DNA of 64,000 nt from Maribacter sp. MJ134 (GTDB lineage Bacteria; Bacteroidota; Bacteroidia; Flavobacteriales; Flavobacteriaceae). Where the stretch lies: contig NZ_CP034570.1 of NCBI RefSeq assembly GCF_003970695.1, positions 2,480,001 through 2,544,000 of the forward strand, in the 5' to 3' direction. The number at the start of each line of letters is the position of its first letter. The stretch's first letter is position 1. The notes beneath the pieces were generated by a model that saw only the letters and a list, made by a program, of their open reading frames with translations, was not told the origin of the DNA and did not search any database. The position numbers and the translations under genes are program-made. This document shows, piece by piece, positions 16,274-45,985 of this stretch.

Positions 16274-16295
16274 CTAAAATTGGTATTGTATACCG

Positions 16296-16338
16296 TAAAA
16301 GTAGCCCTGTTCAACCCTTGGAACTATGATAAATGTCA
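16296..16338 (-). promoter_or_regulatory. FNR-type class II promoter of the usp gene
   Basis: Box TGATAAATGTCA at 16327-16338, -7 element TACTTTTA on the minus strand (complement of 16296-16303). Box centre to -7 centre is 33 bp, the same as at four other promoters in this window. On the minus strand the box is preceded by AAAACC, also shared with the other sites. Confidence 0.75.
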
Positions 16339-16355
16339 GGTTTTATACAAGACGA

Positions 16356-17060
16356 TTAAAATCCATCGACCAAATTTTGAAGCGCTTTTTGGTCTAGAAT
16401 GGCAATTTTTTTTCCAGATGCCTTAATGAACCCTTTCTTTTTGAATTCGGAAATGATTCTGATGCAAGACTCCGTGGCCGTGCCTACAACATTTGATATA
16501 TCTTCCCTGGAAAGTGTCAACTTTAGGAAACCCTCCTCATCTTCACCAAAATTGTTCTTTAGATAAAGAAGGGCCTCTCCAATGCGTTGCTTTACCGTTT
16601 TTTGAGACATGTTTACGATAACATCATCGGCTTCTTTTAAATCATGTGCCATATGGCGCAGTACTTCTAAGGTAAAGTTAGGATTGGTATGTAGTGTATT
16701 TACGATTCCCTCTTTGGGTATAAAGCAAACCTCCATATCGTTAACCGCTACTGCACTTAAGTTAACGGACTCCTCTGCTACCACCGATCGCTGACCTATA
16801 ACTTCGCCTTTACTGGCCAATTTTACAATCTGGTCTTTCCCATTCGCACTCAGTTTTGATAATTTAGAAACCCCAGCTCTTACGCAATATACGCCATCTA
16901 GCTTTTCTCCTTCTTCAAAAATAGCTTCTCCCTTCTTTATGGTTTTGCTCACTTTAGAATCGGATACTCGTTTCAATTCTTCCTTGTTCATAGCGCGCAA
17001 AGCATTGAATTTTCGTACAATACAATTTTCACAGCGGGTTTCCATTTCTTCACGTTCCAT
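16356..17060 (-). CDS. FNR-like Crp/Fnr transcriptional regulator
   Basis: 234 residues. A short N-terminus with a Cys pair C10-x2-C13 (TRCENCIVRKFNALRAM) resembles the cluster-binding region of FNR proteins; further Cys residues lie at GVYCVRAG, MEVCFIP and TESCIR. The cyclic-nucleotide-binding fold follows, then a C-terminal helix-turn-helix whose recognition helix reads GTATESCIRIISEF, keeping the Glu and Arg of the FNR E-xx-S-R pattern but with Ile for Ser. Best candidate to bind the TGAYA-NN-TRTCA boxes nearby. The start could also be the ATG at 17045. Whether it carries an oxygen-sensitive 4Fe-4S cluster is inference. Confidence 0.85.
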   Translation of the reverse strand: MEREEMETRCENCIVRKFNALRAMNKEELKRVSDSKVSKTIKKGEAIFEEGEKLDGVYCVRAGVSKLSKLSANGKDQIVKLASKGEVIGQRSVVAEESVNLSAVAVNDMEVCFIPKEGIVNTLHTNPNFTLEVLRHMAHDLKEADDVIVNMSQKTVKQRIGEALLYLKNNFGEDEEGFLKLTLSREDISNVVGTATESCIRIISEFKKKGFIKASGKKIAILDQKALQNLVDGF

Positions 17061-17104
17061 AACTACCGTTTGTTTACCTGACCCAGTAAAAATACAAGTT
17101 AACC

Positions 17105-17142
17105 AAAAACTAAAACCTTTAAAATTAAAGGTTTTAGTTTTT
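17105..17142. terminator. bidirectional-looking intrinsic terminator after the second crp gene
   Basis: An 18-bp perfect stem AAAAACTAAAACCTTTAA pairs with its complement across a 2-nt loop. The stem ends are A-rich and T-rich so both strands give a U tract. It lies 5 bp after the stop of the 17147-17827 gene and shields the FNR-like gene from read-through. Confidence 0.8.
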
Positions 17143-17146
17143 TATT

Positions 17147-17827
17147 TCACAAAAATGTACGGAGTTGATTATCAGAGATAATGGTAATCTTGCCTTTCTT
17201 TAAGGCTACTAAATGTGCTTTCTTAAAACGGGTTAGTATTGTTATGATATATTCACTGGATGTTCCTAAAATATTGGCCATATCCTCTCGCTTTAAGGTA
17301 ATTCTTAGACTACCATCAGCATTTAACCCAAATTTAGTCCTCATATAAAGTAAAAGTCCTGCTAAACGTTTCTGAATACTCTGTCGGTTTTGATATACTT
17401 TCATTTTAAACTCTTGGTCCTCAAAGTCACTCAAAAATCCTCTTAATACATCAATACAAAAATTATTATTTCTTTCTAGATTCTTTAGTAGCGCACTTTT
17501 ATCCAAACAACACAGTGTAGTATCGCTAATTGCGGTAGCAGTTACTAAAGCGCCTTTTTTTGTTATTAAGGAACGACGTCCCATAAGGTCACCTTTTCCA
17601 AGTAATCTGGTAATATGTTCTTTGCCTTTATCATCAAAAACAGAAAACTTACAGGCACCCTCATTAATGAAAAATAATTTTTGAAGTTGTTCGTTTTCAA
17701 CAAAAACTACAGACCCTTTCCTTATTTGGCACATCTCGCTATTGGCGTTCAGTTTTTCTTTTTCTTTTATGGAAAGACTGTTCAAAAAATTCAACTGCTT
17801 TGCCTTACTAAGATTACAAGTTGTCAT
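17147..17827 (-). CDS. Crp/Fnr family regulator, without FNR cysteine pattern
   Basis: 226 residues. Nucleotide-binding beta roll (about 30-115), long dimer helix and C-terminal winged helix (LKREDMANILGTSSEYIITILTRFKKA). Scattered cysteines do not form an N-terminal FNR cluster motif. In the recognition helix the Glu is kept (SSEYIIT) but the Arg of the FNR/CRP pattern is replaced by Thr, so its DNA specificity probably differs from that of the 16356-17060 protein. It is divergent from ccoI and has its own correctly spaced -7 element on the shared FNR box (17881-17892). Signal unknown; redox, NO or haem are possible. Confidence 0.85.
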   Translation of the reverse strand: MTTCNLSKAKQLNFLNSLSIKEKEKLNANSEMCQIRKGSVVFVENEQLQKLFFINEGACKFSVFDDKGKEHITRLLGKGDLMGRRSLITKKGALVTATAISDTTLCCLDKSALLKNLERNNNFCIDVLRGFLSDFEDQEFKMKVYQNRQSIQKRLAGLLLYMRTKFGLNADGSLRITLKREDMANILGTSSEYIITILTRFKKAHLVALKKGKITIISDNQLRTFL

Positions 17828-17849
17828 AAGTATTCAATTAAATTCTCCA

Positions 17850-17892
17850 CAAAATTAATCTAGACTACCATCTTAAAACCTGACATATGTCA
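17850..17892 (-). promoter_or_regulatory. FNR-type promoter of the second crp gene (shared box)
   Basis: The box TGACATATGTCA (17881-17892, perfect palindrome) is 33 bp centre to centre from TAATTTTG on the minus strand (complement of 17850-17857), an exact -7 consensus. Predicted leader about 17 nt. Confidence 0.72.
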
Positions 17893-17923
17893 TGTTTTAA
17901 AGTGCCCACAAACAAGAACTTTG
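17881..17923 (+). promoter_or_regulatory. FNR-type promoter of ccoI (shared box)
   Basis: The same box TGACATATGTCA drives the plus direction: -7 element GAACTTTG at 17916-17923 (one mismatch to TAnnTTTG), again 33 bp centre to centre. Inferred transcription start near 17930, 17 nt before the ccoI ATG at 17947. Confidence 0.75.
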
Positions 17924-17946
17924 TTTTAGGTATAAGCAAAGTTATT

Positions 17947-20343
17947 ATGGATAAACAAAGTTGTTATCATTGCGGTGACGATTGTGAGCAGGTTTCAGTA
18001 ACGTATGATGAAAAATGTTTTTGTTGCACGGGATGCAAGACGGTATACGAGATTTTTGCTTCTAACGATTTGTCCTATTATTATGATTTACAAGAAAGTG
18101 CTGGGGCTAGTCCTATCGAAGTTGAAGGAAAATATGATTTTCTCGATACTCCTACTATTGTTGAAAGATTAACGGACTTTAACGATAGTGATTTACAAAT
18201 CGCAAATCTCTATGTACCACATATCCATTGCAGCTCCTGTATATGGGTCTTGGAAAATCTGAACAAGCTAAACCCCTTAATTAATAGCTCACAAGTAGAT
18301 TTTCCGAAAAAAACAGTACGCATACATTATAACCCTACCCAAATTTCTTTAAAAGAAATGGTGCTGCTATTGGCTAAGATAGGCTATGAACCAACTATTT
18401 CCTTAGATGATTTTGATAACAAGAAAAAGGTAACGGATCGCAGTCTCACCTATAAATTAGGTGTTGCCGGCTTTGCTTTTGGTAATGTGATGTTCCTGTC
18501 GTTTCCGGACTATTTTGATCTTTCCTCGAGCGCCTCTACTGGCGGTGAGTTTTGGCTCAACGAATATGAAATTTTGTTCCGTTGGCTCATGTTCGCTTTT
18601 TCCTTACCAGTAGTAGGCTACGCAGGAAAAGACTACTTTACATCTGCTTTTAAAGGGCTTCGTTCGGGCATATTAAACATAGATGTACCTATTACGCTTG
18701 GCATTTTAGTCCTTTTTTTACGTAGTACCTTCGAGATTACATTTAATTTGGGAAGTGGTTTTTTTGATTCACTTACCGGATTGGTTTTCTTTCTTTTGTT
18801 AGGTAAATTTTTTCAGCAAAAAACCTATTCCTTTTTGTCCTTTGAGCGCGATTACAAATCCTATTTCCCGATAGCCGTAACAAAGATAAATCCCTCGGGC
18901 AAGGAAGAAACGACCCAGGTGCATGATATTGAATCGGGTGACAGGTTATTAATAAGGAACGAGGAATTGATTCCTGCAGATGGCATACTCCTTAAAGGGA
19001 ATGCGATGATAGATTACAGTTTTGTTACCGGAGAATCGGAACCGCAACAAAAGCAATCTGGCGATAAACTTTTTGCTGGCGGAAAGCAGGTAAACGGGGT
19101 CATTGAAATGGAAGCTATGAAGTCGGTTTCTCAAAGTTATCTTACCCAGCTGTGGAGCAATGCTATTTTTAAAACCGATAAATCTAGTAGGTTTCAAACC
19201 TTAACGGATAGTATTGGGAAAAGATTTACGGTTACCGTATTATCCATTGCAGTCTTGGCCTCTTGTTTTTGGCTGTATTATGAACCTTCAAAGGCAATGA
19301 ATGTTTTCACCGCAGTGCTCATCATTGCTTGCCCCTGCGCCATAGCATTGGCAGCACCATTTACCTTGGGCAATATGCTTCGGATTTTTGGTCGAAAAAA
19401 ATTCTATCTAAAAGACACCCTGACCATTGAGCTACTTGCACAAATTGACACCGCAATTTTTGATAAAACAGGTACCATAACCAGCACAAAAACAAGTACA
19501 GCGACCTACGAGGGCATGCCCTTAAACCATGAAGAAGCGTCACTTCTAAAGAATACCCTACGTTCTTCTAACCATCCTTTAAGTAGAACCTTATATAATT
19601 TATTGGCAGAACAGGATATCTATCCCTTGGACGACTACGACGAGTATTTAGGCAAAGGTTTAATGGCGCGTAAGGGAGAAAACCGTATGAAAATAGGTTC
19701 TGCGGATTTTGTAGGCAATACTGATGTCAAAGGGCTTCTGGACACCGCTGTTCATGTCGCCAATAATGACAGTTATAAAGGTAGGTACATTTTTCATAAT
19801 CAGTATAGGGAAGGTATAAGCGAAACCTTCAAAGCCATGTCCAAAAATTTGAGATTGGCCATTCTTTCCGGAGATAATGAAGGAGAAAAATCTAGACTGG
19901 AAAAACTCCTCCCAAAATTGACACCGCTCTATTTTAATCAAAAACCTGAGGATAAGCTCAAGTTTATTAAATCCCTACAAGAACAAGGACAAAAGGTGCT
20001 TATGGTTGGAGACGGGCTTAATGATGCCGGTGCTTTGGCCCAAGCCCATGTAGGTATTGCGATTTCAGAGAATACAAACGTATTTTCTCCTGCGTGCGAC
20101 GGAATTATGGATGCCATAAAATTTAAAGAACTATACCAGTACATACAAGCCTCAAAAAAGGCCCTAAAAATTATAAGGCTCAGTTTTCTACTCTCGCTAC
20201 TCTATAATAGTATAGGGCTGTATTTTGCGGTAACTGGTCAGTTAGAGCCTGTGATTGCGGCGATTTTAATGCCTTTGAGTTCTATTAGCGTCGTGGTTTT
20301 CGCTACCGTAACAACCAATCTTTTAGGAAGAAAATTAAAATAA
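17947..20343 (+). CDS. ccoI: copper-translocating P-type ATPase for cbb3 oxidase assembly
   Basis: 798 residues from ATG 17947. An earlier in-frame ATG at 17887 lies inside the FNR box and upstream of the predicted transcript start, so it is rejected. The N-terminus has a Cys-rich FixI-type domain (CYHCGDDC, CFCCTGC) and a metal-binding HIHCSSCIW (C95, C98). Then come transmembrane helices, the ion-path motif CPC (ACPCAIALA), the phosphorylation site DKTGT and the MVGDGLNDAGAL hinge motif. CcoI/FixI exports copper needed for the CuB centre of cbb3 oxidase. The ccoS gene follows 70 bp downstream, with its own FNR promoter. Confidence 0.93.
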   Translation: MDKQSCYHCGDDCEQVSVTYDEKCFCCTGCKTVYEIFASNDLSYYYDLQESAGASPIEVEGKYDFLDTPTIVERLTDFNDSDLQIANLYVPHIHCSSCIWVLENLNKLNPLINSSQVDFPKKTVRIHYNPTQISLKEMVLLLAKIGYEPTISLDDFDNKKKVTDRSLTYKLGVAGFAFGNVMFLSFPDYFDLSSSASTGGEFWLNEYEILFRWLMFAFSLPVVGYAGKDYFTSAFKGLRSGILNIDVPITLGILVLFLRSTFEITFNLGSGFFDSLTGLVFFLLLGKFFQQKTYSFLSFERDYKSYFPIAVTKINPSGKEETTQVHDIESGDRLLIRNEELIPADGILLKGNAMIDYSFVTGESEPQQKQSGDKLFAGGKQVNGVIEMEAMKSVSQSYLTQLWSNAIFKTDKSSRFQTLTDSIGKRFTVTVLSIAVLASCFWLYYEPSKAMNVFTAVLIIACPCAIALAAPFTLGNMLRIFGRKKFYLKDTLTIELLAQIDTAIFDKTGTITSTKTSTATYEGMPLNHEEASLLKNTLRSSNHPLSRTLYNLLAEQDIYPLDDYDEYLGKGLMARKGENRMKIGSADFVGNTDVKGLLDTAVHVANNDSYKGRYIFHNQYREGISETFKAMSKNLRLAILSGDNEGEKSRLEKLLPKLTPLYFNQKPEDKLKFIKSLQEQGQKVLMVGDGLNDAGALAQAHVGIAISENTNVFSPACDGIMDAIKFKELYQYIQASKKALKIIRLSFLLSLLYNSIGLYFAVTGQLEPVIAAILMPLSSISVVVFATVTTNLLGRKLK

Positions 20344-20351
20344 TAAAAACC

Positions 20352-20394
20352 TGACAAATGTCATATTTATTCATTGCTAGTCCATTTAGTTTTA
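20352..20394 (+). promoter_or_regulatory. FNR-type promoter of the ccoS-NO-Q-P operon
   Basis: Box TGACAAATGTCA at 20352-20363 and -7 element TAGTTTTA at 20387-20394, 33 bp centre to centre. The box begins 8 bp after the ccoI stop. Predicted transcription start near 20400, about 14 nt before ccoS. Confidence 0.75.
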
Positions 20395-20413
20395 CATCAG
20401 AATTCAGGTAGGT

Positions 20414-20617
20414 ATGAGTGTAATTTATGTGTTATTGGCCATCAGCATCAGTGTCGCTGTACTTTTTTTCATGGCTTTCATTTTTTCGGTAAAAAGTGGT
20501 CAGTATGACGATGCCTACACGCCATCGGTACGTATGCTGTTTGAAGATGAACTAGTAAAATCACAGGTTGGCGAACTACCGCCCGATATGGATATAAACA
20601 CAGAACAAAATAACTAA
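20414..20617 (+). CDS. ccoS: cbb3 oxidase maturation protein CcoS
   Basis: 67 residues, normal for CcoS. One N-terminal transmembrane helix (MSVIYVLLAISISVAVLFFM) followed by the conserved FIFSVKSGQYDD motif, with a short acidic tail. CcoS is needed to insert cofactors into the catalytic subunit. It precedes ccoNO by 6 bp and has its own FNR-type promoter. Confidence 0.92.
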   Translation: MSVIYVLLAISISVAVLFFMAFIFSVKSGQYDDAYTPSVRMLFEDELVKSQVGELPPDMDINTEQNN

Positions 20618-20623
20618 TCAACT

Positions 20624-22825
20624 ATGGAAGTACAACAGTTTTATTACGATAACAAAATCGTAAAAAAGTTCATCTATGCTACAATGCTTTGGGGTATTGT
20701 AGGAATGTCCGTTGGCCTTTTACTGGCCTTTATGTTTATGTTTCCAAACATTACCGACGGTATATCTTGGCTAAGTTTTGGTCGTCTAAGACCTTTACAC
20801 ACCAATGCCGTCATTTTCGCGTTTGTAGGGAATGCCATTTTCGCTGGGGTGTACTACTCCACACAGCGCTTGTTAAAAGCTAGAATGTTCAGTGATTTCC
20901 TAAGCAACTTCAATTTTTGGGGTTGGCAATTAATTATCGTTGCCGCGGCGATAACGCTTCCATTAGGCTATACGACCTCTAAAGAGTATGCAGAACTAGA
21001 ATGGCCCATTGATATTGCCATTGCCTTGGTTTGGGTAGCTTTTGGAGCAAATCTCATAGGCACAATGATCAAAAGAAGACAGCGCCATTTATATGTCGCT
21101 ATTTGGTTCTATTTGGCCACATTCGTTACCGTTGCAGTGCTCCATATTTTCAATAGTCTAGAGCTTCCCGTAAGCGCGTTAAAAAGCTACTCGGTATATG
21201 CCGGCGTTCAAGATGCATTGGTACAATGGTGGTACGGACATAATGCCGTAGCGTTCTTTTTAACCACACCGTTCTTAGGTTTAATGTACTATTTTGTGCC
21301 TAAAGCCGCCAACAGACCGGTATACTCTTACAAATTATCCATTGTTCACTTCTGGTCCTTAATATTTATTTACATCTGGGCAGGACCGCACCATTTGTTG
21401 TATTCTTCTTTACCGGATTGGGCACAGAACTTGGGAGTCGCTTTCTCCATCATGTTAATAGCACCTTCTTGGGGAGGTATGATCAATGGGCTACTTACCT
21501 TACGAGGAGCTTGGGACAAGGTACGTACGGACGCTACTTTAAAATTTATGGTAGTGGCCATTACCGGCTATGGTATGGCAACGTTTGAAGGACCTATGTT
21601 GTCCTTGAAAAACGTAAACGCTATTGCTCATTTCAGTGATTGGATTATTGCCCATGTGCATGTTGGAGCCTTAGCTTGGAACGGGTTTATGACCTTTGGA
21701 ATGATCTACTGGCTGGTTCCCAAAATGTTCAAAACAAGACTTGCCTCAACAGGTTTGGCAAATTTCCACTTTTGGATAGGTACCCTTGGTATTATATTAT
21801 ATGCACTTCCCATGTACGTAGCCGGGTTTACACAGGCACTCATGTGGAAAGACTTTAATCCTGATGGCACATTGGTCTATGGTAATTTCTTGGAAACCGT
21901 AAATGAAATTATGCCCATGTACTGGATGCGTGCCATTGGTGGCAGCATGTATATTATTGGTGCATTGGTCATGGTATATAATATTGTAATTACCATAAGA
22001 TCAGGGAAAACCGTGGAGGATGAGTTAGCGGAGGCTGCGCCTTTGACTAGGGTATCCAAAAGAAGAACAGCCGGAGAAACCTTTCACACTTGGTTAGAGC
22101 GTAAACCTATACAACTAACTATTTTGGCTACCGTTGCCATTCTTATAGGAGGTATCATCCAAATTGTACCAACCATCCTAGTAAAATCTAACATTCCAAC
22201 AATTACGAGTGTTACGCCCTATACACCACTAGAACTAGAAGGTAGGGACCTCTATATTAGAGAAGGTTGTGTGGGTTGCCACTCTCAAATGGTACGGCCG
22301 TTCCGTAGTGAAGTAGAACGTTATGGAGAATACGCCAAAGCAGGAGAATTTGTTTATGACCATCCATTTCTATGGGGTAGTAAACGTACTGGCCCGGATT
22401 TACTTAGGGTCGGAGGTAAATATTCCGATAACTGGCACTTAAACCATATGTATGATCCGCAGAGTACCTCATCAGGCTCCATAATGCCCTCCTACTCGTG
22501 GCTCGTACGAAACGAACATGACCGTAATGATGTAGCGAAAAAAATGGAAGCCATGGTCGCTTTGGGCGTTCCCTACACAGATGAGGATATTGCCAATGCG
22601 CAACAGCATATGAACGAACAAGCTACTCAAATTGAAAAGAACTTGTACACCGATCCCGATTTTGCCAAAAGTTATGAGGCAGACAAAAAATCGGCCGCTG
22701 CAAATGGTGAGCAATTTGTGGAAATGCGCAATAGGGAAATCGTGGCCATGATTGCCTACCTGCAACGTTTGGGGACAGATATTAAAATAAAAGGAACCAA
22801 CGAGTTACTGTCAGAAAACAATTAA
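20624..22825 (+). CDS. ccoNO: fused cbb3 cytochrome c oxidase subunits I and II
   Basis: 733 residues. Residues 1 to about 460 are CcoN: twelve or so membrane helices with haem and copper ligands H59 (RLRPLHTN), H206 (WYGHNAV), H256-H257 (AGPHHLLY) and H344/H346 ([10 protein letters not shown]). Residues about 495-733 are CcoO: one helix, then a haem c motif CVGCH (C549, C552, H553) with the CcoO hallmark [18 protein letters not shown]. CcoN and CcoO are separate genes in proteobacteria; the fusion is common in Bacteroidota. This is the oxygen-reducing core of a high-affinity proton-pumping terminal oxidase. Confidence 0.95.
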
Positions 22826-22921
22826 ACAACGTAATGGACCAAGGATTTAAGATGTTAGATAAAACGCAGAATTTATGTTACAGCTCAAATCCAATGTCAA
22901 CACTTTAAACAAGATACCGTT

Positions 22922-23113
22922 ATGCTAAAATTTGTAAAAGGATATATGGAAAGTATAGATGGGATAGCCACCTACCCCATGTTATCACTGTTAATTTTCT
23001 TCATTTTTTTTGTCGTGCTTTTCGCTTGGGTGTTTACCGCATCAAAGGAGTACATAAAAGAAGTTAGTGAATTGCCATTGGACCAAACGAACCAACAGAA
23101 CATAGAGTTATGA
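22922..23113 (+). CDS. ccoQ: small cbb3 oxidase subunit CcoQ
   Basis: 63 residues with one transmembrane helix (LSLLIFFIFFVVLFAWVFTAS, two overlapping parts) and a short polar tail KEYIKEVSELPLDQ. It has the size and place of CcoQ/FixQ, between ccoNO and ccoP, though CcoQ sequences are poorly conserved. About 95 bp separate it from ccoNO with no promoter noticed. Confidence 0.8.
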   Translation: MLKFVKGYMESIDGIATYPMLSLLIFFIFFVVLFAWVFTASKEYIKEVSELPLDQTNQQNIEL

Positions 23114-23193
23114 AATGAGGCTTGGCACTTTAAGACCTTTCTGTTTTACGATGCCTCTTTTCATTACAACTAGAAACTTTAAAACAAATACAG

Positions 23194-24075
23194 ATGAAAA
23201 ATATGTCACCTTGGTGGATTAGAATTCCACTTCTCTTCTTTACCATTTTTGGATTGATGGAGTATTTTATAGATTCCGGTGAGCAACCCGCCTTCATAGC
23301 TTTTCCTATGGCAGCCGCCTTCTTGGTTTTTATATTAATTCTATTGATCGCCATAGAGCTTATTCTTGCATCTATAGAGAACGTTATGTTCCAAACCTTA
23401 TCGGATGAAGCTAAAGAGAAATATCTAGCGGCATCATCCAAAAGATGGGAATGGACTTGGGGCAAAAAGACCTACAAGAAGTTGTTGGGATCAAAACCTA
23501 TTGAAGCAGAAGGAGAAATAATTCTTGACCATAACTATGACGGCATACGCGAGTTGGATAACAAACTACCGCCTTGGTGGGTGTACATGTTCTATGCTAC
23601 CATCATTTTTGGGTTTATCTATTTGGCGCGCTTCCATGTATTCAATGGCTATGACCAAGACTTAGAATACGAACAGGAGGTGGCTGCTGCACAATTAGCG
23701 ATTGAAGAGTACAAGAGAACCGCTAAAGACCTTGTGGATGTAAATACCGTTGAACTCTTAACTGATGCTTCTGATATAAACGCCGGAAAGACCATATTTC
23801 AGAACAACTGTGTAGCCTGTCATATGGCCGATGGTGGCGGTGGTATTGGTCCTAATCTCACAGACCAGAACTGGATTCTTGGTGGTGGCATCAAAAATGT
23901 GTTCAACACCATATCCGAAGGAGGTAGAGATGGTAAGGGAATGGTGGCATGGAAACAGATTTTAAAGCCTGCGGAAATAGCGCAGGTATCTAGCTATATC
24001 CTCACAGAAATTAACGGAACCACACCAGCCAATCCAAAAGCACCGGAAGGAGATATTTGGGTAGAAACTCCTTAG
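23194..24075 (+). CDS. ccoP: cbb3 oxidase subunit CcoP, one haem c motif
   Basis: 293 residues. Two N-terminal helices (about 9-25 and 38-60), a loop, the conserved IRELDNKLPPWWVYMFYAT segment leading into a further helix (about 128-146), and a C-terminal cytochrome c domain with CVACH (C206, C209, H210) and Met in GKGMVAW. Typical CcoP carries two haem c groups; here only one CxxCH exists. The extra N-terminal helices are seen in Bacteroidota CcoP-like proteins. It should pass electrons from periplasmic donors to CcoNO. Confidence 0.9.
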   Translation: MKNMSPWWIRIPLLFFTIFGLMEYFIDSGEQPAFIAFPMAAAFLVFILILLIAIELILASIENVMFQTLSDEAKEKYLAASSKRWEWTWGKKTYKKLLGSKPIEAEGEIILDHNYDGIRELDNKLPPWWVYMFYATIIFGFIYLARFHVFNGYDQDLEYEQEVAAAQLAIEEYKRTAKDLVDVNTVELLTDASDINAGKTIFQNNCVACHMADGGGGIGPNLTDQNWILGGGIKNVFNTISEGGRDGKGMVAWKQILKPAEIAQVSSYILTEINGTTPANPKAPEGDIWVETP

Positions 24076-24144
24076 ATGTTTTACGAGAAGACACTATTAG
24101 GCTCTTCAAAGAGCTATGTAATCGTAGTTAATGCAAATTAGGTA

Positions 24145-25563
24145 ATGGCACAAGGTCAAGAAAATTTTAGGGACTCCATCGGAACTATAAACGAGGAGGG
24201 AAAACGCGCTTGGGTGTTCCCTAAAAAACCTAGTGGTAAATTCTATACCTATCGCAAATATGTTAGTTATGTGCTATTGATTTTTCTTTTGGCGGCCCCA
24301 TTCGTGAAAATCAATGGTAACCAGTTTCTAATGTTCAATGTACTGGAAAGGCGTTTCAATATATTCGGTTTTCCATTTTGGCCGCAAGATTTTCACTTGT
24401 TTGTAATTTCCATGATCATCGGTGTTATTTTCATTGCGCTATTCACGGTTGCCTTTGGCCGTATTTTTTGTGGGTGGATGTGTCCACAGACCATTTTCAT
24501 GGAAATGGTGTTCCGTAGGATTGAATATTGGATAGATGGCGACCGCGGCGCCCAAATAAAATTGGACAGACAACCCTGGAATGCGGAAAAAATAAAAAAA
24601 AGGACCCTTAAAGGTCTGATTTTCTTTATCATTTCCTTCCTCATCGCAAACGTCTTTTTAGCCTATTTAATAGGGAGTGACAAGCTTATGAGCTACATCA
24701 TTGATGGCCCTTTTAAGCATTGGAGCACACTTATCTCCTTATTGATTTTTACCGCAGTGTTCTATTTCGTTTTCGCATGGTTTAGAGAACAAGTCTGCAT
24801 CATTGCTTGCCCTTACGGAAGGATGCAGGGCGTTTTATTGGATAATAAATCTATAGTCGTCGCCTACGACCATAAAAGGGGCGAAGCGGAAAAGGGGCGG
24901 AAAAAATGGCGTAAAAACGAAGATAGGGAGGCATTAGGACACGGCGACTGTATTGACTGTTTTCAATGTGTCAATGTTTGTCCTACAGGGATAGATATTA
25001 GAAATGGAACACAGTTAGAATGTGTAAACTGTACCGCCTGTATTGACGAGTGCGACACGATTATGGAAAAAGTAAACCTTCCAAAAGGCCTGATCAGGTA
25101 TGCAAGTGAAGATGAAATCACCAAAAAGGAAAAGTTTAAATTTTCGCCCAGACTTAAAGGATATACCGCTGTTCTATTCATATTAATAGGCGTTCTGGCA
25201 GGAATGCTGTTTCTCCGGAATGATTTAGAAGCCAATATATTACGCTTGCCAGGACAATTGTATGAGCACAAAGAAGGAGATATTATTAGTAATGTATATA
25301 CATACAAACTAATGAACAAGACTACAGAGGCCGTCCCCGATGTTAACTTTAGGCTCCTTTCACATGAAGGAATTGTAAAAGTAGTACGCACCAAAAACTT
25401 TGTAGTACCTGCTCAGGATCTAGCAGAGGGCACTCTCTTTATAGAAATTGATAATGCCGCGGTTAAAAGCGATAAGGAAAAAGTTAAGGTAGGCGTTTAC
25501 AGCGGTGATAAGTTGATTGAAACCACACTATGCGCCTTTATGGCACCAAGGAGTTACAAATAA
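24145..25563 (+). CDS. ccoG: cbb3 oxidase accessory ferredoxin-like protein CcoG
   Basis: 472 residues. Four to five membrane helices, a CGWMCPQTIFMEM motif, a CIIACPYGRMQG motif and two 4Fe-4S binding Cys runs (GDCIDCFQCVNVCPTGID and CVNCTACIDECD). The C-terminal 130 residues form a periplasmic Ig-like domain. Matches CcoG/FixG (RdxA), which is linked to copper reduction for oxidase assembly. It follows ccoP by 69 bp and precedes ccoH by 13 bp. Confidence 0.93.
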   Translation: MAQGQENFRDSIGTINEEGKRAWVFPKKPSGKFYTYRKYVSYVLLIFLLAAPFVKINGNQFLMFNVLERRFNIFGFPFWPQDFHLFVISMIIGVIFIALFTVAFGRIFCGWMCPQTIFMEMVFRRIEYWIDGDRGAQIKLDRQPWNAEKIKKRTLKGLIFFIISFLIANVFLAYLIGSDKLMSYIIDGPFKHWSTLISLLIFTAVFYFVFAWFREQVCIIACPYGRMQGVLLDNKSIVVAYDHKRGEAEKGRKKWRKNEDREALGHGDCIDCFQCVNVCPTGIDIRNGTQLECVNCTACIDECDTIMEKVNLPKGLIRYASEDEITKKEKFKFSPRLKGYTAVLFILIGVLAGMLFLRNDLEANILRLPGQLYEHKEGDIISNVYTYKLMNKTTEAVPDVNFRLLSHEGIVKVVRTKNFVVPAQDLAEGTLFIEIDNAAVKSDKEKVKVGVYSGDKLIETTLCAFMAPRSYK

Positions 25564-25576
25564 ATAAAATAATATT

Positions 25577-26020
25577 ATGAAAATTAATTGGGGAACCGGA
25601 GTAGTATTGGCCTTTATTGGTTTTATCTCGTTCATACTTTTTTTCGTTTTTAAAATGAATATGGACAACAGATCTAACCATGATTTGGTCACAGAAGATT
25701 ATTACAAGGATGCATTGAATCATCAAACTGAAATAAATGCGCAAGTAAATGCGAATAATGCCGATAAAATCTTAATTGAAAAAACAGCGGAAGGCTTACT
25801 TCTGATATTTCCGGAAACCATAGACCTAAAGGAACTAGAAGGAACAGTGTCCCTATACAGACCATCTAATAAACAATTGGATTTTGACTTACCCATAAGT
25901 TTATCCAATACACATTTGCTCATACCTGACAAACGTTTGTTAGATGGTCGCTGGGACATTAAAATAAATTGGAAAATCAATGAAGATTCCTATTTGCAAA
26001 AAGAAAAAATAACCTACTAA
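25577..26020 (+). CDS. ccoH: FixH/CcoH family protein
   Basis: 147 residues. One N-terminal transmembrane helix (about 7-24) followed by the conserved DNRSNHDLVTEDYYKDALNH segment and a beta-rich periplasmic domain ending in a DGRWDIKINW strand. FixH/CcoH supports assembly or stability of cbb3 oxidase. It sits 13 bp after ccoG and 3 bp before the SafE-like gene, in the standard order. Confidence 0.9.
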   Translation: MKINWGTGVVLAFIGFISFILFFVFKMNMDNRSNHDLVTEDYYKDALNHQTEINAQVNANNADKILIEKTAEGLLLIFPETIDLKELEGTVSLYRPSNKQLDFDLPISLSNTHLLIPDKRLLDGRWDIKINWKINEDSYLQKEKITY

Positions 26021-26023
26021 AAA

Positions 26024-26728: not shown

Positions 26729-26736
26729 ACTAGGTC

Positions 26737-27228: not shown

Positions 27229-27237
27229 AAGAAGCGC

Positions 27238-28425
27238 TTAGGCATTCATTAATTCAAACGCCTGTTTAGCAATTTCTAATTCCTCATTTGTGGGCACGAC
27301 CAAAATCTTTACCCGGGAGTCTTCATGCTGTATTTCCTGAATACCATCGGTACGTTTTTGATTCTTTTTTAAATCGATTTTAATTCCTAGGCCATCCATA
27401 TTTTCGCAGACCATGGCACGGAGTAAACTGGAATTTTCACCGATACCCGCTGTAAATAACAGGGTATCAACACCGTTAAGGACTGCTATATAACTACCAA
27501 TAAATTTCTTGATACGATAGGCCATCATATCCAATGCCAATTGACAGTCTTGGTTGCCGTTTGCTGCTTGCGTTTGTACGTCCCTTAAATCGGAATATCC
27601 TGTAATTCCTAACAGGCCGCTTTGCTTTTGCAACAGCTCGTTTGCTTCTTGGGAAGTCATTTTAAGACTGTCCATCAGGAAAAAAACTACGGATTGGTCA
27701 ATATCACCACTGCGTGTTCCCATTAGGAGTCCGTTGGTGGGTCCAAAACCTAAGGAATGGTCCACACTCTTTCCATCCTTAACAGCGGTAATACTACAGC
27801 CATTTCCTAAATGAATACTTATTATTCTAGAAGCTGATTTGTTCAGATAATCAATTGCCTTTTCAGAAACATAGTGGTGACTTGTGCCATGAAAACCATA
27901 TACCCGAATATGCTCCCTATCGGCAAGCGCTTTGGGTATGGCATACCGGTACGCTTTTTCGGGTAGCGTTTGATGAAAGGCCGTATCAAACACCGCAACT
28001 TGAAGGGCGTTCTTAAAGATTTCTGCCGCTACTTTTATTCCCGTGGCGTTAGCGGGATTGTGTAATGGCGCCAATATTGACAAACGTTCAATTTCGGCAA
28101 GAACAGATGCATCAATCTTGGCGGGTTTATTAAAATGTTCCCCACCATGTACCACACGATGGGCGACAAGAGCAATTTCTTCCGCCGTGTTCAATACTCC
28201 ATTATCCGCATCCATCAAAAGCGTAGTTATCGCTTCTAATCCCTCCTTATGACTAAAAACCGCTTTCTCCTTGGACAACGAAATAGCCTTGGTTGTATAA
28301 TGTATCTTCGCATTTTTGTGCCCAATACGTTCCACCAGACCTTTACACATAATTATTTCGGAAGGCATTTCAATAATCTGAAACTTAATGGACGAACTTC
28401 CTGAATTTAAGACCAGTATCTGCAT
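27238..28425 (-). CDS. ackA: acetate kinase
   Basis: 395 residues. Interconverts acetyl phosphate plus ADP with acetate plus ATP. Family motifs: N-terminal LVLNSGSSSIKFQI, VVHGGEHF, FDTAFHQTLP, GFHGTSHHYV and HLGNGCSI, and a C-terminal TAGIGENSSLLR. Length is normal. The pta gene ends 6 bp upstream, so pta-ackA is one operon that can make ATP from acetyl-CoA, useful when oxygen is low. No FNR box was found before pta. Confidence 0.95.
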   Translation of the reverse strand: MQILVLNSGSSSIKFQIIEMPSEIIMCKGLVERIGHKNAKIHYTTKAISLSKEKAVFSHKEGLEAITTLLMDADNGVLNTAEEIALVAHRVVHGGEHFNKPAKIDASVLAEIERLSILAPLHNPANATGIKVAAEIFKNALQVAVFDTAFHQTLPEKAYRYAIPKALADREHIRVYGFHGTSHHYVSEKAIDYLNKSASRIISIHLGNGCSITAVKDGKSVDHSLGFGPTNGLLMGTRSGDIDQSVVFFLMDSLKMTSQEANELLQKQSGLLGITGYSDLRDVQTQAANGNQDCQLALDMMAYRIKKFIGSYIAVLNGVDTLLFTAGIGENSSLLRAMVCENMDGLGIKIDLKKNQKRTDGIQEIQHEDSRVKILVVPTNEELEIAKQAFELMNA

Positions 28426-28431
28426 AGGATT

Positions 28432-30519: not shown

Positions 30520-30652
30520 TATTCGAAGGTGCTGATTTGAAAAAATAAAGATATGGTTTTTGCCACACTGCAGTACAACAATCAGAATCAAAACAAGTAA
30601 AAAGCCAGTAGGTAATTAAAGCTTATAGATTTACATAGTTGATTACCTACTA

Positions 30653-31012
30653 CTATTTTACATCTACTACAGGTGCATTCAAGTTTTCAAAAATCTGCCG
30701 TTTCTCTTCTAAAGTAAACTCTTTGGAAGCAAACCATTCATGGATTTTAATTTTTTCGTTTTCTATTTGGGCATTTCTAATAGCTTGTAAGGAAACGATA
30801 TGCCAATGCGTACCCTTTTTTCTGGAAACGGAATAACCTACATCTTCTATGATGTAGGATGGTTTAGGTCTATTCACCAATCGTACTCCATTTTTTAAAA
30901 CGGCCAAAGTTTCTGTTAGTGCCACAACCTCCGAAAAAGAATACCGTGCAAAATCATCGAACCCATCTTTAGCGACATTATAGACTTTATCTCCTATCTT
31001 AAGTTTATACAT
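30653..31012 (-). CDS. protein of unknown function
   Basis: 119 residues from ATG 31012 (MYKLKIGDKVYNVAKDGFDD). An in-frame ATG 19 codons earlier is possible but adds a sequence that runs into poorly coding DNA. The N-terminal IGDKVYNVAKDGFDDFARYS looks like a small beta-barrel with a VLKNGVRLVNRPKPSY strand region; the C-terminal third is helical (FTLEEKRQIFENL). No family recognised. Single gene between pta and a small export protein gene. Confidence 0.6.
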   Translation of the reverse strand: MYKLKIGDKVYNVAKDGFDDFARYSFSEVVALTETLAVLKNGVRLVNRPKPSYIIEDVGYSVSRKKGTHWHIVSLQAIRNAQIENEKIKIHEWFASKEFTLEEKRQIFENLNAPVVDVK

Positions 31013-31110
31013 ATATAAAAAAGATGCTAAACTAAAAACAGTGTAGGGTTCTTGGAAGAAAGACCGCACTTACTTATTCACAAAATTTATAAAGTCAAAA
31101 TTTCTGGGTA

Positions 31111-31569
31111 TTAGCCCATACCTTTCATGGTAAGCAAGGTAGTTGACCAGACAATGACCGACGAAAAGAATATTCCGATAGCATTGGCCGCAAAAGCTTT
31201 TTTCTTCTCTATTTTGAACAAATAACTAGCGATACTACCAGCGTATACTCCAGTTCCAGGTACCGGGAGCATCACAAAGAAAATAAGGCCATAAAAGCCG
31301 TATTTTTTAATCTTATCCCCAGAACCAACTTTTGCTTTTCTGGCCACGTAAATGGCAGATTTTTTGTAAAAATCCCATTTAAGCATTGACTTGTTCAGGT
31401 ATTTTAAAAAAAAGTGCATAATTGGGAATACCAATAAATTAGCCACAAAACATACTAGGAATACAGCATAACTATTCACCCCTTTTAAAAGACCATAGGG
31501 AATACCCACCTTAGCTTCTCCAAAAGGGGAAATACTCCACAACGCAGCTATTATAAGATCAAGTATCAC
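31111..31569 (-). CDS. small multidrug export family membrane protein
   Basis: 152 residues with four hydrophobic segments. The SPFGEAKVGIPYGLLKGV segment near residue 15 and the loop KKYGFYGLIFFVMLPVPGTGVYAGS (motif PVPGTG) are typical of the COG2426 / Sm_multidrug_ex family. The name is historic; transport activity is not proven for most members. Stand-alone gene. Confidence 0.8.
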   Translation of the reverse strand: MILDLIIAALWSISPFGEAKVGIPYGLLKGVNSYAVFLVCFVANLLVFPIMHFFLKYLNKSMLKWDFYKKSAIYVARKAKVGSGDKIKKYGFYGLIFFVMLPVPGTGVYAGSIASYLFKIEKKKAFAANAIGIFFSSVIVWSTTLLTMKGMG

Positions 31570-31731
31570 TAGTGTTGTTTTAGGAATCGGTAAAATTACG
31601 TCTCAAATCACTTAAAACAGCTTATAAAATCATAAATAATCTTTAAAAGAAACCGTGTATAGCCAATACTTTTAAATTCCCTATTTTAGAACTATCTACA
31701 GTACAGTAGTATTCCACCTAATTCGCTTGAT

Positions 31732-33123
31732 ATGAAAAAAAATAATTCTAGAAGATCTTTCTTAAAAAAAGCATCACTCACCTCCGCTGCGCTAACAGCA
31801 TCACCTTTTATTCTTACTTCACAAGAGGATGAAAAAATACTGCTCTCAAGAAATTACAATGAACCTAAATACACAGCGAACGACCATATTAATCTTGCAT
31901 TAATCGGGGCCGGAATTCAAGGCATATATGATACGCAAGCAGCACTTGGAGTTCAAGGTATTAAGCTAGTTGTGGCCTGTGACCTCTATTTAGGAAGACT
32001 TGACAGGGCGAAAGAATTGTGGGGAGATGCCATCTTTGTAACGCAGGACTACAGAAAAATTTTAGAAAGAAAAGATATTGACGCTGTTATTGTAGCAACA
32101 CCAGACCACTGGCACCAAAAAATTACAATCGACGCACTAAATGCAGGGAAACACGTCTATTGTGAAAAACCGATGGTACAAAAATTTGAAGAAGGGCAGG
32201 CGATTATCGAGGCTCAGAAGAAAAGTGGTAAAATATGTCAGGTAGGTAGTCAAGGAATGTCGTCCTTAGGAAACGAAAAGGCAAAACAGTTATATGAGGA
32301 TGGCGCCATAGGCGATATTGTTATGTTGGATATGTACAACGACCGTTATTCCGCAGAAGGTGCATGGCAGTATCCCATTCCGCCAGATGCTAATAAAACC
32401 ACCATAGATTATGATACTTTTTTGGGAACCGCTCCAAAAGTACCTTATGAGCTAAAACGCTTTTTTAGATGGCGGAATTATCAGGATTATGGCACGGGTG
32501 TCGCCGGTGATTTATTCGTTCATGCCTTTTCCACATTAAACCACGTAATTAGTTCACACGGACCAAATAGGGCACTCGCCACAGGTGGCCTACGCTACTG
32601 GAAAGACGGAAGAGATGTACCCGACGTGACCATTACCCTTTATGATTATCCCAAAACGGAAACACATGCGGCATTCAATGCAGCTTTTAGAATAAACTTC
32701 ATTGCTGGAAACGGCGGTGGAGGTGGTTTTAAGTTAATTGGCACGGAAGGTGAAATGGAGGTAGGCCAGAATCAGGTTAAATTAACCCGTTCTAAGCTAG
32801 GCAGAGTCCCCGGAAGTTACTCCCTTATTGCCTATACGGAAGAAACGCAAGAGAAAATCAAAACCGCTTATGCCAATAAAAATTTAGAGTCACGTAAGAA
32901 CAACCTAAGTACGGGCACTACCACTTGGGAGGCGCCCCATAATTATAAGGGAGGCCATTATGACCATTTTTATAACTTTTTTTCGGCTATTCGCACTAAC
33001 GGAGCGGTAATACAAGACCCTACCTTTGGTCTTAGAGCTGCAGGGGCGGCACTACTTGCAAACAAGAGTTATTTTAAAAACAGACCGGTAGATTGGGACC
33101 CAACAAAAATGAAATTGTTATAA
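31732..33123 (+). CDS. Tat-exported Gfo/Idh/MocA family oxidoreductase
   Basis: 463 residues. N-terminal Tat signal SRRSFLKKASLTSAALTASP, so the enzyme folds with its NAD(P) in the cytoplasm before export. A dinucleotide-binding motif ALIGAGIQGIYDTQ (about 56-70), the conserved VYCEKPMVQ motif and a large C-terminal alpha/beta domain follow. Family members oxidise sugars or, as in GH109, use NAD+ for glycoside cleavage. The substrate is unknown. It ends 2 bp from the convergent usp gene. Confidence 0.87.
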   Translation: MKKNNSRRSFLKKASLTSAALTASPFILTSQEDEKILLSRNYNEPKYTANDHINLALIGAGIQGIYDTQAALGVQGIKLVVACDLYLGRLDRAKELWGDAIFVTQDYRKILERKDIDAVIVATPDHWHQKITIDALNAGKHVYCEKPMVQKFEEGQAIIEAQKKSGKICQVGSQGMSSLGNEKAKQLYEDGAIGDIVMLDMYNDRYSAEGAWQYPIPPDANKTTIDYDTFLGTAPKVPYELKRFFRWRNYQDYGTGVAGDLFVHAFSTLNHVISSHGPNRALATGGLRYWKDGRDVPDVTITLYDYPKTETHAAFNAAFRINFIAGNGGGGGFKLIGTEGEMEVGQNQVKLTRSKLGRVPGSYSLIAYTEETQEKIKTAYANKNLESRKNNLSTGTTTWEAPHNYKGGHYDHFYNFFSAIRTNGAVIQDPTFGLRAAGAALLANKSYFKNRPVDWDPTKMKLL

Positions 33124-33125
33124 CA

Positions 33126-33947
33126 TCAGATTTTGAATGTTACCACCGGTAAAACGGAATGATTGGCTACATCTTCACCAATACTTCCCATGAAGAAGTG
33201 GGATAGCCCTTTACGACCATGAGTGGGTATTCCGATAAGGTCCGCATTACTCATCGCGGTAAAATTGAGAATTCCGCGTTCTACGTTATAGTCATTATAA
33301 ATCGCTATCAACACATCATGGCCAACAGTACTACAGAACGAGGCTATTTTCTCTTGAATTTCCGCAGTACTTAAAAAATCATCTCCTGGAGTATTAATGT
33401 ATACCAATTTCAATTCTGCTGAAAAGGTATCCGCTATATATTTTGCACGTTGAAAAGCATGAATGTTTTCCTCTTTTAAATCACAGGCGAAGACCATTTC
33501 TTTTGGACTAAAATGTTCTATTTTGGTTTTAATGACCATTACCGGAATATCCGAATGACGCACTACCTTTTCGGTATTTGACCCAATGAAGATCTCTTTT
33601 AACCCATCACTTCCCGTACTACCCATGACAATTAAGTCCGCATTATGATCTTCCGCCACCTGACTTACTTCACTGAACACCTTAAAATGTTTTATGATGG
33701 GCACCACTTTAATAGGCTGTAAATAGGTTTTATCTAAAAAATCGCTTAATCGTTTCTCGGCCAGTTTAATTAGAAATACGGTCTGTTCAGGATGAAAACC
33801 TTCACTGGAAGATAAAATAGCCTCGTTCAGTTCTAACATATGCAGCGCATAGACCGTTGCGTCATTTTTTTCTGCAATACTAGCGGCCACCTGTAAGGCA
33901 TTATCCGATTGGTCCGAGAAATCTATAGGAACAATTATGTTTTTCAT
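33126..33947 (-). CDS. tandem-domain universal stress protein
   Basis: 273 residues with two UspA domains, both keeping the glycine-rich nucleotide motif: GSTGSDGLKEIFIGSNTEKV in domain 1 and IPTHGRKGLSHFFMGSIGED in domain 2. It begins 17 bp after hemN and is probably transcribed from the FNR-type promoter of hemN. It is the second Usp protein in the window tied to an FNR box. Confidence 0.9.
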   Translation of the reverse strand: MKNIIVPIDFSDQSDNALQVAASIAEKNDATVYALHMLELNEAILSSSEGFHPEQTVFLIKLAEKRLSDFLDKTYLQPIKVVPIIKHFKVFSEVSQVAEDHNADLIVMGSTGSDGLKEIFIGSNTEKVVRHSDIPVMVIKTKIEHFSPKEMVFACDLKEENIHAFQRAKYIADTFSAELKLVYINTPGDDFLSTAEIQEKIASFCSTVGHDVLIAIYNDYNVERGILNFTAMSNADLIGIPTHGRKGLSHFFMGSIGEDVANHSVLPVVTFKI

Positions 33948-33964
33948 AGGTCAATTATTTAAAA

Positions 33965-35326
33965 TTAGATGGTCATAGAAAATAATCGCGTTTCCGGTTT
34001 TCTTTCATGAAGTTTACGGTCAAATGCCATACAAATATTGCGTATAAAGGGTTGGCCTGCTTCATTTACCCTAAGTTGTCTCGGCGTTATCTCTATTAAT
34101 CTGTCATGCTCCAGCTCCTTCAATTCATCCAAAACAAAGGGTAAGTCGGCAAAAAACATCTCCTCGTTAAACCAGGAGGTTTCAAAATTGCACATGAGAT
34201 TAAGGATATGTTTTCGTATTACCTGGTCTTCCTTGGTAAGAAGATGGCCCTTGAAAATTGGGATCACATTATTTGCCACCAAGTGTTGGTACTCTTCCAC
34301 ACTTTTTACATTTTGAGCGAAGCCGTACCAACTATCGCTAATACTTGAGGCGCCCAGACCTATCATCAATTTTGTTCTAGAGGCCGTATATCCCATAAAA
34401 TTTCGGTGCAATCTTCCTTCAACGGAAGATGCATACAAACTATCTGTTTTTAAGGCGAAATGATCCATACCCACTTCCTCATAACCCAAATAGCCTAGCA
34501 AGTTCTTACCGTCTTCATATTGTCTACGTTTTTCTTCTGGTGATGGTAAATCAGAATCCTTATAACCTCTTTGTCCATTTCCCTTTAGCCAAGGTACATG
34601 AGCGTAGCTGTAAAAGGCCAATCTATCGGGCATTAAGGATTTTGTCTTCAGTATAGTTTTAGCCACATGGGCCATGGTTTGATATGGCAGACCAAAAATG
34701 ATATCATGGCCTACGGAGGTATATCCTATCTCTCTTGCCCAATTCGTTACGTTAGCTACATTCTCAAAAGGCTGTACCCTATTGATGGCTTTTTGAACAG
34801 TTTCATTGTAATCCTGTACGCCATAACTCACGCGCTTAAAGCCTACGTCATGTAATGCCTGTAAATGCTCCTTCGTGGTATTATTTGGATGCCCTTCAAA
34901 ACTAAACTCATAATTTTCTGCTCTATCTGCCTTTTTAAAGATTTCGTTGATGAGCAATTTTAGATTCTCGGGACTAAAAAAAGTTGGTGTCCCCCCACCC
35001 AAATGAAGTTCCTTGACCTTGGGTTTTTCTTCAAGGAGGTCCAAATAGAGGGACCATTCCTTTAAAAGCGATTTAATATAGGGCAACTCTACATCGTGTC
35101 TTTTTGTAATTCTTTTATGACAGCCACAAAAAGTACACATATTCTCACAAAAAGGTAGATGAATATATAAACTTATCCCTTCTTTAGAATTTGACTCCCC
35201 AAAGCTTCCTTGAACTGATGCCGACCACTTCTTACCAGAAAACTCCTTTATGTTCCAGTAAGGTACCGTTGGATAACTTGTATATCTGGGTCCGGGAACA
35301 TTGTATTTTTGAACAAGACTGCACAT
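33965..35326 (-). CDS. hemN: oxygen-independent coproporphyrinogen III dehydrogenase
   Basis: 453 residues. Radical SAM enzyme that decarboxylates coproporphyrinogen III to protoporphyrinogen IX without oxygen. The motif HLPFCENMCTFCGC has the four Cys CxxxCxxCxC (C60, C64, C67, C69) of genuine HemN, and YTSYPT near the N-terminus is also diagnostic. Length is normal. A perfect TAGATTTG -7 element and FNR box lie upstream, with a leader of about 14 nt. Haem supply for the haem-rich cbb3 oxidase at low oxygen is a clear rationale. Confidence 0.95.
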   Translation of the reverse strand: MCSLVQKYNVPGPRYTSYPTVPYWNIKEFSGKKWSASVQGSFGESNSKEGISLYIHLPFCENMCTFCGCHKRITKRHDVELPYIKSLLKEWSLYLDLLEEKPKVKELHLGGGTPTFFSPENLKLLINEIFKKADRAENYEFSFEGHPNNTTKEHLQALHDVGFKRVSYGVQDYNETVQKAINRVQPFENVANVTNWAREIGYTSVGHDIIFGLPYQTMAHVAKTILKTKSLMPDRLAFYSYAHVPWLKGNGQRGYKDSDLPSPEEKRRQYEDGKNLLGYLGYEEVGMDHFALKTDSLYASSVEGRLHRNFMGYTASRTKLMIGLGASSISDSWYGFAQNVKSVEEYQHLVANNVIPIFKGHLLTKEDQVIRKHILNLMCNFETSWFNEEMFFADLPFVLDELKELEHDRLIEITPRQLRVNEAGQPFIRNICMAFDRKLHERKPETRLFSMTI

Positions 35327-35345
35327 ATGACTATAAAATTTTATA

Positions 35346-35388
35346 CAAATCTATAGGCTGTGCTTGTTAGAAAATATGATAAATGTCA
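35346..35388 (-). promoter_or_regulatory. FNR-type class II promoter of hemN-usp
   Basis: Box TGATAAATGTCA at 35377-35388, identical to the box before the other usp gene, and -7 element TAGATTTG (complement of 35346-35353), an exact consensus match. Centres are 33 bp apart. Confidence 0.78.
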
Positions 35389-45905: not shown

Positions 45906-45985
45906 TGATACCAGAAAAGTTTACCAAACACTTTTCGTAGAATGATAATTATCAAATGAGAATGCCCTAAAAACCTTCCTAAACT

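Follow-up and report, generated by a model that had tools for sequence, protein, structure and literature searches.

An FNR-type box at a fixed 33-bp distance from the -7 element at predicted low-oxygen promoters of Flavobacteriaceae

Five promoters in a 64,000-nucleotide stretch of DNA from Maribacter sp. MJ134 (contig NZ_CP034570.1, positions 2,480,001 to 2,544,000; hereafter the window) carry the same FNR-type palindrome, TGAYANNTRTCA, at one fixed distance from the -7 element. These promoters precede usp, fnrB, ccoI, ccoS and hemN, and in all five directions the gap between the box and the -7 element is 23 bp (33 bp from centre to centre). Box and spacing recur across the family Flavobacteriaceae, are conserved at orthologous promoters, stand before genes of a low-oxygen kind and co-occur with Crp/Fnr proteins. 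We consider it quite probable that an FNR-like activator drives these promoters in the class II manner, together with the Bacteroidota RNA polymerase, and that the Crp/Fnr-type regulator FnrA, encoded beside the sites, is their reader under low oxygen.

One spacing at five promoters

The exact box is found at positions 16327, 17881, 20352, 35377 and 45943 of the window, where 0.37 matches are expected, and none of 100 shuffles of the window reached at least five. A gap of 23 bp is the only one common to all five promoters, and when the five downstream stretches were shuffled 20,000 times, no common gap ever arose. Scored on the bases T, A, T, T, T and G or A, the -7 elements (Table 1) reach 6/6 in four promoters and 5/6 in ccoI. 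Against the stricter form TAnnTTTG, those of fnrB and hemN are exact, those of usp and ccoS end in A, and that of ccoI begins with G. If the -7 element ends at -5, the predicted leaders are 15-19 nucleotides (nt) long. The fifth exact box, TGATAATTATCA (45943-45954), was set aside as a promoter box; it lies behind the end of an open reading frame (ORF) at 44730-45905 with no visible start ahead, and is probably due to chance.

When the 4,016,247-bp genome was scanned for YAAANNTA-N23-TGAYANNTRTCA, four exact matches and one with a single mismatch were obtained, and a further 36 with two mismatches; the reversed control pattern gave 36 matches at up to two mismatches. The five window promoters are all of the pairs with zero or one mismatch, and they fall inside approximately 19 kb. 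A search that combined strict TAnnTTTG with the looser box TGAYNNNNRTCA returned 11 matches over all gaps, two of them (fnrB and hemN) at gap 23; strict pairs are few because one base departs from TAnnTTTG in three of the five -7 elements. Box-like palindromes number 20 in this genome, compared with 11 for the reversed pattern.

These results bear out a sequence-only reading of the window, which had listed four boxes with five equal 33-bp spacings and had judged such equality unlikely by chance. Its boxes and spacings are exact, the box at 45943 being an addition to its list, and the genome scan that it proposed returns its five promoters as the only close pairs. Its leaders of 14-20 nt are close to the computed values.

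Sites, genes and core promoter across the family

A sample of 80 family genomes from 79 genera was scanned for the strict pair CAAANNTA / TGAYANNTRTCA, any gap from 8 to 38 bp being allowed, and the pair was present in 67 genomes. Gap 23 accounts for 98 of the 150 family matches listed and comes from 33 of the 34 genomes listed; among these matches the next best gaps have seven each, and the other 30 gaps average 1.7. A search at gap 23 alone gives 215 strict sites in 65 of the 80 genomes, while the reversed control pattern at that gap has none in any of the 80. For other families of the class the listing held 150 matches in 58 genomes, from which 11 own-family rows were set aside before counting; gap 23 then makes up 43 of the 139 matches listed, in 24 of the 55 genomes listed, followed by gap 24 (11 matches) and gap 33 (9 matches). 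The corresponding binomial values (1e-106 for the family and 6e-30 for other families) ignore shared descent. The gap-23 rule thus reaches beyond Flavobacteriaceae, in a more diluted form.

Orthologous promoters were compared in the loci around fnrA from the best 80 of 444 relatives, which include Maribacter, Allomuricauda and Flagellimonas. These loci hold 221 boxes as opposed to 14 of the reversed type, and 189 pairs of box and TAnnTTTR at gap 23. Smaller counts occur at gap 0 (29), gap 9 (12) and gap 17 (12), the first of which probably comes from the T-rich stretch behind the box. The looser box TGAYN4RTCA was found within 130 bp ahead of 77 of 79 usp, 74 of 74 ccoS, 78 of 78 ccoI and 74 of 80 fnrA orthologues, and a -7 element of at least 5/6 stands at gap 23 in 77, 74, 75 and 61 of these, respectively. 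The operon-internal ccoN has a box in 1 of 74 loci, and hemN lies outside the loci (0 of 80).

The 23 intervening letters vary, with mean modal frequencies of 0.52-0.61 for usp, ccoS, ccoI and fnrA, compared with 0.87-0.93 for the box letters; the values for box and -7 element follow in part from how the search pattern was built, in which the first -7 base was left free. Imperfect -7 elements are kept gene by gene in the relatives. The final A is retained in 75 of 77 usp and 73 of 74 ccoS promoters, and T is absent as the first base from all 75 ccoI promoters, which have C, A or G instead. These elements may represent promoters that are held weak so that the activator is required.

Of the 215 family sites, 91 were followed downstream; three of these had no downstream ORF and three had ORFs of fewer than 70 amino acids (L091, L095 and L121), and these were left out. 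The 85 downstream proteins that were scanned include 16 CcoN, 13 HemN, 4 Usp, 4 pyruvate formate-lyase (PFL)-like proteins, 3 phosphate acetyltransferases, 2 DeoC, 2 ferredoxin oxidoreductases, 2 Crp/Fnr proteins and single cases such as FeoB. As a group, the downstream genes (ccoN, hemN, usp, pflB, pta and fnr among them) fit life at low oxygen. Fifteen CcoN frames begin 198-227 nt behind the -7 element, a distance that would accommodate a ccoS gene such as the one in the window. Flanking sequence of up to 1.5 kb was examined around 32 family sites. Mean ORF coverage of these loci is 0.81; 27 sites fall entirely outside ORFs of at least 100 amino acids and two fall mostly within one.

The primary sigma promoter of Bacteroidota includes a -33 TTG element. 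None was found between the box and the -7 element in the 91 family sites, where most positions are T-rich and G makes up 2-15%. Mapped starts of Flavobacterium psychrophilum place TAnnTTTG at -12 to -5 (PMC9723704). Combined with the 33-bp spacing, this start rule from another flavobacterium would put the box centre at -41.5, the class II position of FNR; in E. coli, this is the commonest centre of single FNR sites that activate (PMC7349173, citing Myers 2013). According to PMC9723704, oxygen limitation in F. psychrophilum strongly induces the cbb3 oxidase, and haem synthesis enzymes are also induced. Neither Fnr nor Crp is mentioned in its main text. A search of the open-licence literature returned no report of an FNR regulon or an FNR box for Flavobacteria, which is no proof of absence. 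Flavobacteriales Crp/Fnr homologues from a bioreactor are placed near MalR, with carbon sensing predicted, in PMC8510549.

In the mechanism that we propose, an FnrA dimer, active at low oxygen, would bind TGAYA-NN-TRTCA centred at -41.5 and would take the place of the -33 element. Bound FnrA would then allow the polymerase to open the -7 element that lies 33 bp downstream, be it TAnnTTTG or one of the weaker forms that are conserved. Predicted targets are the high-affinity cbb3 oxidase (ccoS-NOPGH and ccoI), oxygen-free haem synthesis (hemN), a stress protein and the second regulator gene fnrB. The sequence-only reading had placed the box near -41 as a class II site, had likened it to the TGAy-N4-rTCA geometry of E. 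coli FNR and had drawn from this a bipartite promoter model for low-oxygen genes. The predicted position is refined to -41.5 (by the F. psychrophilum rule as given in PMC9723704), the palindrome is of the same type, and the comparative evidence from many promoters speaks for the model. Its counter-expectation, that such pairs might be as common in coding DNA as before genes, does not agree with the 27 of 32 sites that lie outside ORFs.

FnrA and other candidate readers

FnrA belongs to the Crp/Fnr superfamily, with Pfam cNMP_binding and HTH_Crp_2 above their cut-offs; among NCBIfam models it matches Fnr best, with a score of 109 bits that falls below the cut-off of 228. C10, C13 and C112 align with cluster ligands of the FNR of known structure. 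Position 19 holds an asparagine where E. coli-type FNR has its third N-terminal cysteine, and C59 aligns with the alanine of LYAIRSG in the FNR beta-roll. E. coli-type FNR binds an oxygen-labile [4Fe-4S] cluster through four cysteines, three of them N-terminal and one in the beta-roll. Of these, only two N-terminal ones and the one at C112 have counterparts, and FnrA is thus, as judged from its alignment, an FNR-like variant and not E. coli-type FNR. A predicted structure, based on 38 relatives of 79-87% identity, reached a mean predicted local distance difference test score of 59.4, so that cysteine distances could not be judged.

Conservation was assessed in 138 homologues, of which 29 come from the family genomes, 80 from the named relatives and 29 from further sources (27 from other families and two from the same family). 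C10, C13, C59 and C112 are invariant in all 138 and position 19 is never a cysteine. The 27 homologues from other families are 35-41% identical and leave only 21 of 234 columns invariant, including the four cysteine columns. In 23 of the 27, however, a further cysteine lies within positions 18-24 (at position 22 in 19 of them), as compared with 0 of the 111 others. This residue is possibly a third N-terminal ligand, in which case only members of Flavobacteriaceae would be reduced to four cysteines. E197 and R201 of the recognition helix, which align with E and R of FNR, are present in 138 of 138.

Sites track the presence of Crp/Fnr proteins. Among the 11 family genomes without any Crp/Fnr match, one has sites (a single site), as compared with 64 of the 69 genomes that have a match (Fisher test, 1.9e-8). 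The lone site (G023, L095) lies within an ORF. Many of the 11 genomes are small, and three of 3.3-3.4 Mb are likewise without sites. Genomes with an FnrA orthologue (E below approximately 1e-60) have sites in 45 of 47 cases, 163 sites in all. In the Maribacter genome itself, FnrA and FnrB are the only Crp/Fnr matches at E < 0.001. This co-occurrence, the invariance of E197 and R201, and the place of fnrA as a Crp/Fnr gene beside the sites are why we favour FnrA as the protein that would bind and activate, with an iron-sulphur cluster as the presumed oxygen sensor.

Several observations weigh against this assignment. Genomes that lack FnrA and have only other Crp/Fnr matches keep sites in 19 of 22 cases (51 sites), while two genomes with FnrA, G012 and G016, have no strict site. 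The third N-terminal cysteine is replaced by N19, no box was found within 160 bp ahead of fnrA in the window, and the gap-23 peak is weaker outside the family (43 of the 139 matches listed). Because FnrA-less genomes keep sites, other Crp/Fnr proteins are probably able to read the box, and FnrB is also a candidate here; a single operator thus seems, from these comparisons, to be served by more than one protein in the family.

The best homologue was retrieved from ten FnrA-less genomes. In five of them (G078, G040, G042, G054 and G069), each with three or four gap-23 sites, it begins with a part that looks receiver-like by eye. These receiver-Crp-like proteins are about 350 amino acids long (L284, L285, L286, L288 and L293), and their recognition helix reads TESLIR, PETLIR or TETLIR, compared with TESCIR in FnrA. 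The other five comprise a 313-amino-acid protein of a different kind (G063), a 255-amino-acid class (G036 and G075) and weaker FnrA-like proteins (G043 and G020). A literature search on receiver-Crp fusions found nothing of use. The one congener sampled, G075, has no FnrA orthologue (best match 33% identity) and a single gap-23 site, suggesting that the system was gained or lost within the genus.

It is unlikely, in our view, that the box at -41.5 is instead read by another Crp/Fnr protein, such as FnrB here and a receiver-Crp fusion elsewhere, in response to a signal such as nitric oxide or a phosphorylation cascade. Such a reader would accord with the sites retained in FnrA-less genomes and the similar recognition helix in five of the ten best homologues, with the canonical cluster cysteine missing from FnrA, and with the place of fnrB, which adjoins the common box and is itself a target. 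However, fnrB occurs in only 5 of the 80 related loci while sites occur in nearly all, and FnrB carries a threonine at the place of R201 (GTSSEYIIT versus GTATESCIR, by eye). Sites are also present in 45 of the 47 genomes of the FnrA group, and the target genes fit low oxygen.

The fnrA promoter shows a second geometry. In 28 of the 47 family genomes with FnrA, a box stands 9-11 bp ahead of a fnrA -7 element of at least 5/6 (loci L040-L053 and L296-L311); 24 are at 9 bp and 12 have strict TAnnTTTG. Strict TAnnTTTG at gap 23 precedes fnrA in 5 of the 47, and in 9 of the 47 no box was found within 160 bp ahead of the gene. A box at 9-11 bp covers the core promoter and should therefore block the polymerase; a block has also been argued for a site at -19.5 (PMC7349173). 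We infer that fnrA may be negatively autoregulated at this geometry and, given the 61 of 80 loci at gap 23, positively autoregulated in the Maribacter-like group.

This second geometry also lends some plausibility to repression at the other promoters, with the box as a repressor site that blocks them in air and frees them at low oxygen. Such a reading is very improbable for the gap-23 promoters, because there the box lies just upstream of the core, the -33 TTG is missing and some weak -7 elements are conserved, all of which fit the need for an activator, and a repressor would not demand one exact gap. Likewise, the chance that five equal spacings arose simply from AT-rich palindromes combined with a loose -7 pattern, as the 5/6 score of ccoI, the two -7 elements ending in A and the 20 palindromes against 11 reversed might suggest, is negligible in view of the shuffles (0 of 20,000), the 215 sites against none in the control and the conserved orthologous promoters.

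Most named relatives have a box both ahead of fnrA and ahead of ccoI. In the window and in 5 of the 80 relatives (L202, L206, L216, L217 and L230), fnrB lies between fnrA and the box, and in all five relatives the gap-23 promoter belongs to fnrB, fnrA being without one. Here the fnrA side of the two-way promoter has been taken over by fnrB, and FnrA may control fnrB in a cascade. By eye, a hairpin flanked by runs of A and T can be seen at approximately 17105-17142, between fnrA and fnrB. It is probably a terminator, and fnrA therefore likely has its own box-less promoter.

A broader reading, which we regard as tentative and somewhat doubtful, is that Bacteroidota possess their own kind of oxygen-sensing FNR, whose iron-sulphur cluster in Flavobacteriaceae would be held by C10 and C13 near the N-terminus and by C59 and C112 in the beta-roll. 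The box at -41.5 would activate, and at about -27.5 (the 9-bp gap) it would repress the regulator's own gene. Where FnrA is absent, a receiver-Crp/Fnr fusion would read the persisting operator, the promoter code thus outliving its sensor. The cysteine at positions 18-24 in 23 of the 27 other-family homologues lowers the odds for the four-cysteine part of this reading. In two proteins of the 255-amino-acid class (L289 and L290), as read by eye, the place of C59 lacks a cysteine but the N-terminal part carries a third one, a pattern that a swap of ligands would predict.

The locus, known systems and meaning

Coordinates of the promoters and genes are collected in Table 1. The ORF caller places the start of ccoI at an ATG within the box (17887), but translation more likely begins at 17947, where an ATG follows the -7 element.

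Table 1. Boxes, -7 elements and genes of the locus, in window coordinates
Feature	Position	Strand	Remarks
usp box	16327..16338	-	FNR-type, TGACATTTATCA in gene direction
usp -7 element TACTTTTA	16296..16303	-	gap 23; predicted start near 16291, leader 18 nt (position rule as given in PMC9723704)
usp, universal stress protein	15374..16273	-	Pfam Usp
fnrA, Crp/Fnr-type regulator, likely box reader	16356..17060	-	cysteines C10, C13, C59, C112
fnrB, second Crp/Fnr-type regulator	17147..17827	-	between fnrA and box; called crp in the sequence-only reading
fnrB -7 element TAATTTTG	17850..17857	-	gap 23; predicted leader 18 nt
box common to fnrB and ccoI	17881..17892	two-way	TGACATATGTCA, perfect palindrome
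ccoI -7 element GAACTTTG	17916..17923	+	gap 23; predicted leader 19 nt to ATG at 17947
ccoI, copper-type P-type ATPase of cbb3 cluster	17947..20343	+	
ccoS box	20352..20363	+	TGACAAATGTCA
ccoS -7 element TAGTTTTA	20387..20394	+	gap 23; predicted leader 15 nt
ccoS, 67 amino acids	20414..20617	+	name rests on place and length
ccoN-O fusion, ccoP, ccoG, ccoH (remaining cbb3 oxidase cluster)	20624..26020	+	
hemN box	35377..35388	-	TGACATTTATCA in gene direction
hemN -7 element TAGATTTG	35346..35353	-	gap 23; predicted leader 15 nt
hemN, oxygen-independent coproporphyrinogen III oxidase	33965..35326	-	NCBIfam hemN above cut-off

Class II promoters of E. coli FNR share with these the TGAY-N4-RTCA palindrome, a centre at -41.5 if the flavobacterial start rule holds, and low-oxygen genes such as cytochrome oxidase and hemN. 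Here, however, the core is TAnnTTTG, no -35/-33 element was seen, and the outer box bases are A or C before and T behind, whereas the E. coli consensus is TTGAT-N4-ATCAA. FnrA resembles the FNR of E. coli and Aliivibrio fischeri in its Crp-type sensor with helix-turn-helix and in the aligned C10, C13, C112 and E197/R201, but has N19 for the third N-terminal cysteine and the extra C59. It also has an isoleucine at the place of FNR Ser212.

In Proteobacteria, a Crp/Fnr protein of the FixK/FNR type is encoded beside the cbb3 oxidase genes and controls these and hemN. The present case differs in phylum and core promoter, and in that fnrA and ccoI share a two-way box in most relatives. The sigma-A promoters of Flavobacterium, as described in PMC9723704, likewise have the -7 element TAnnTTTG, which is here tied to a box 33 bp upstream. 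The picture that emerges is of a familiar type of mechanism, here in a new setting and with a variant FNR protein.

The promoters of this phylum differ from the E. coli model, and the combination of box and -7 element provides a 43-bp pattern for low-oxygen genes that can be scanned for and is without background in the control. Regulon prediction thereby becomes possible in many genomes, and the pattern singles out an FNR-like protein with a changed set of cysteines. Our findings suggest that class II geometry, with the activator at -41.5, also holds for the Bacteroidota polymerase with its TAnnTTTG element, and the fixed spacing looks like a general low-oxygen switch in Flavobacteriaceae.

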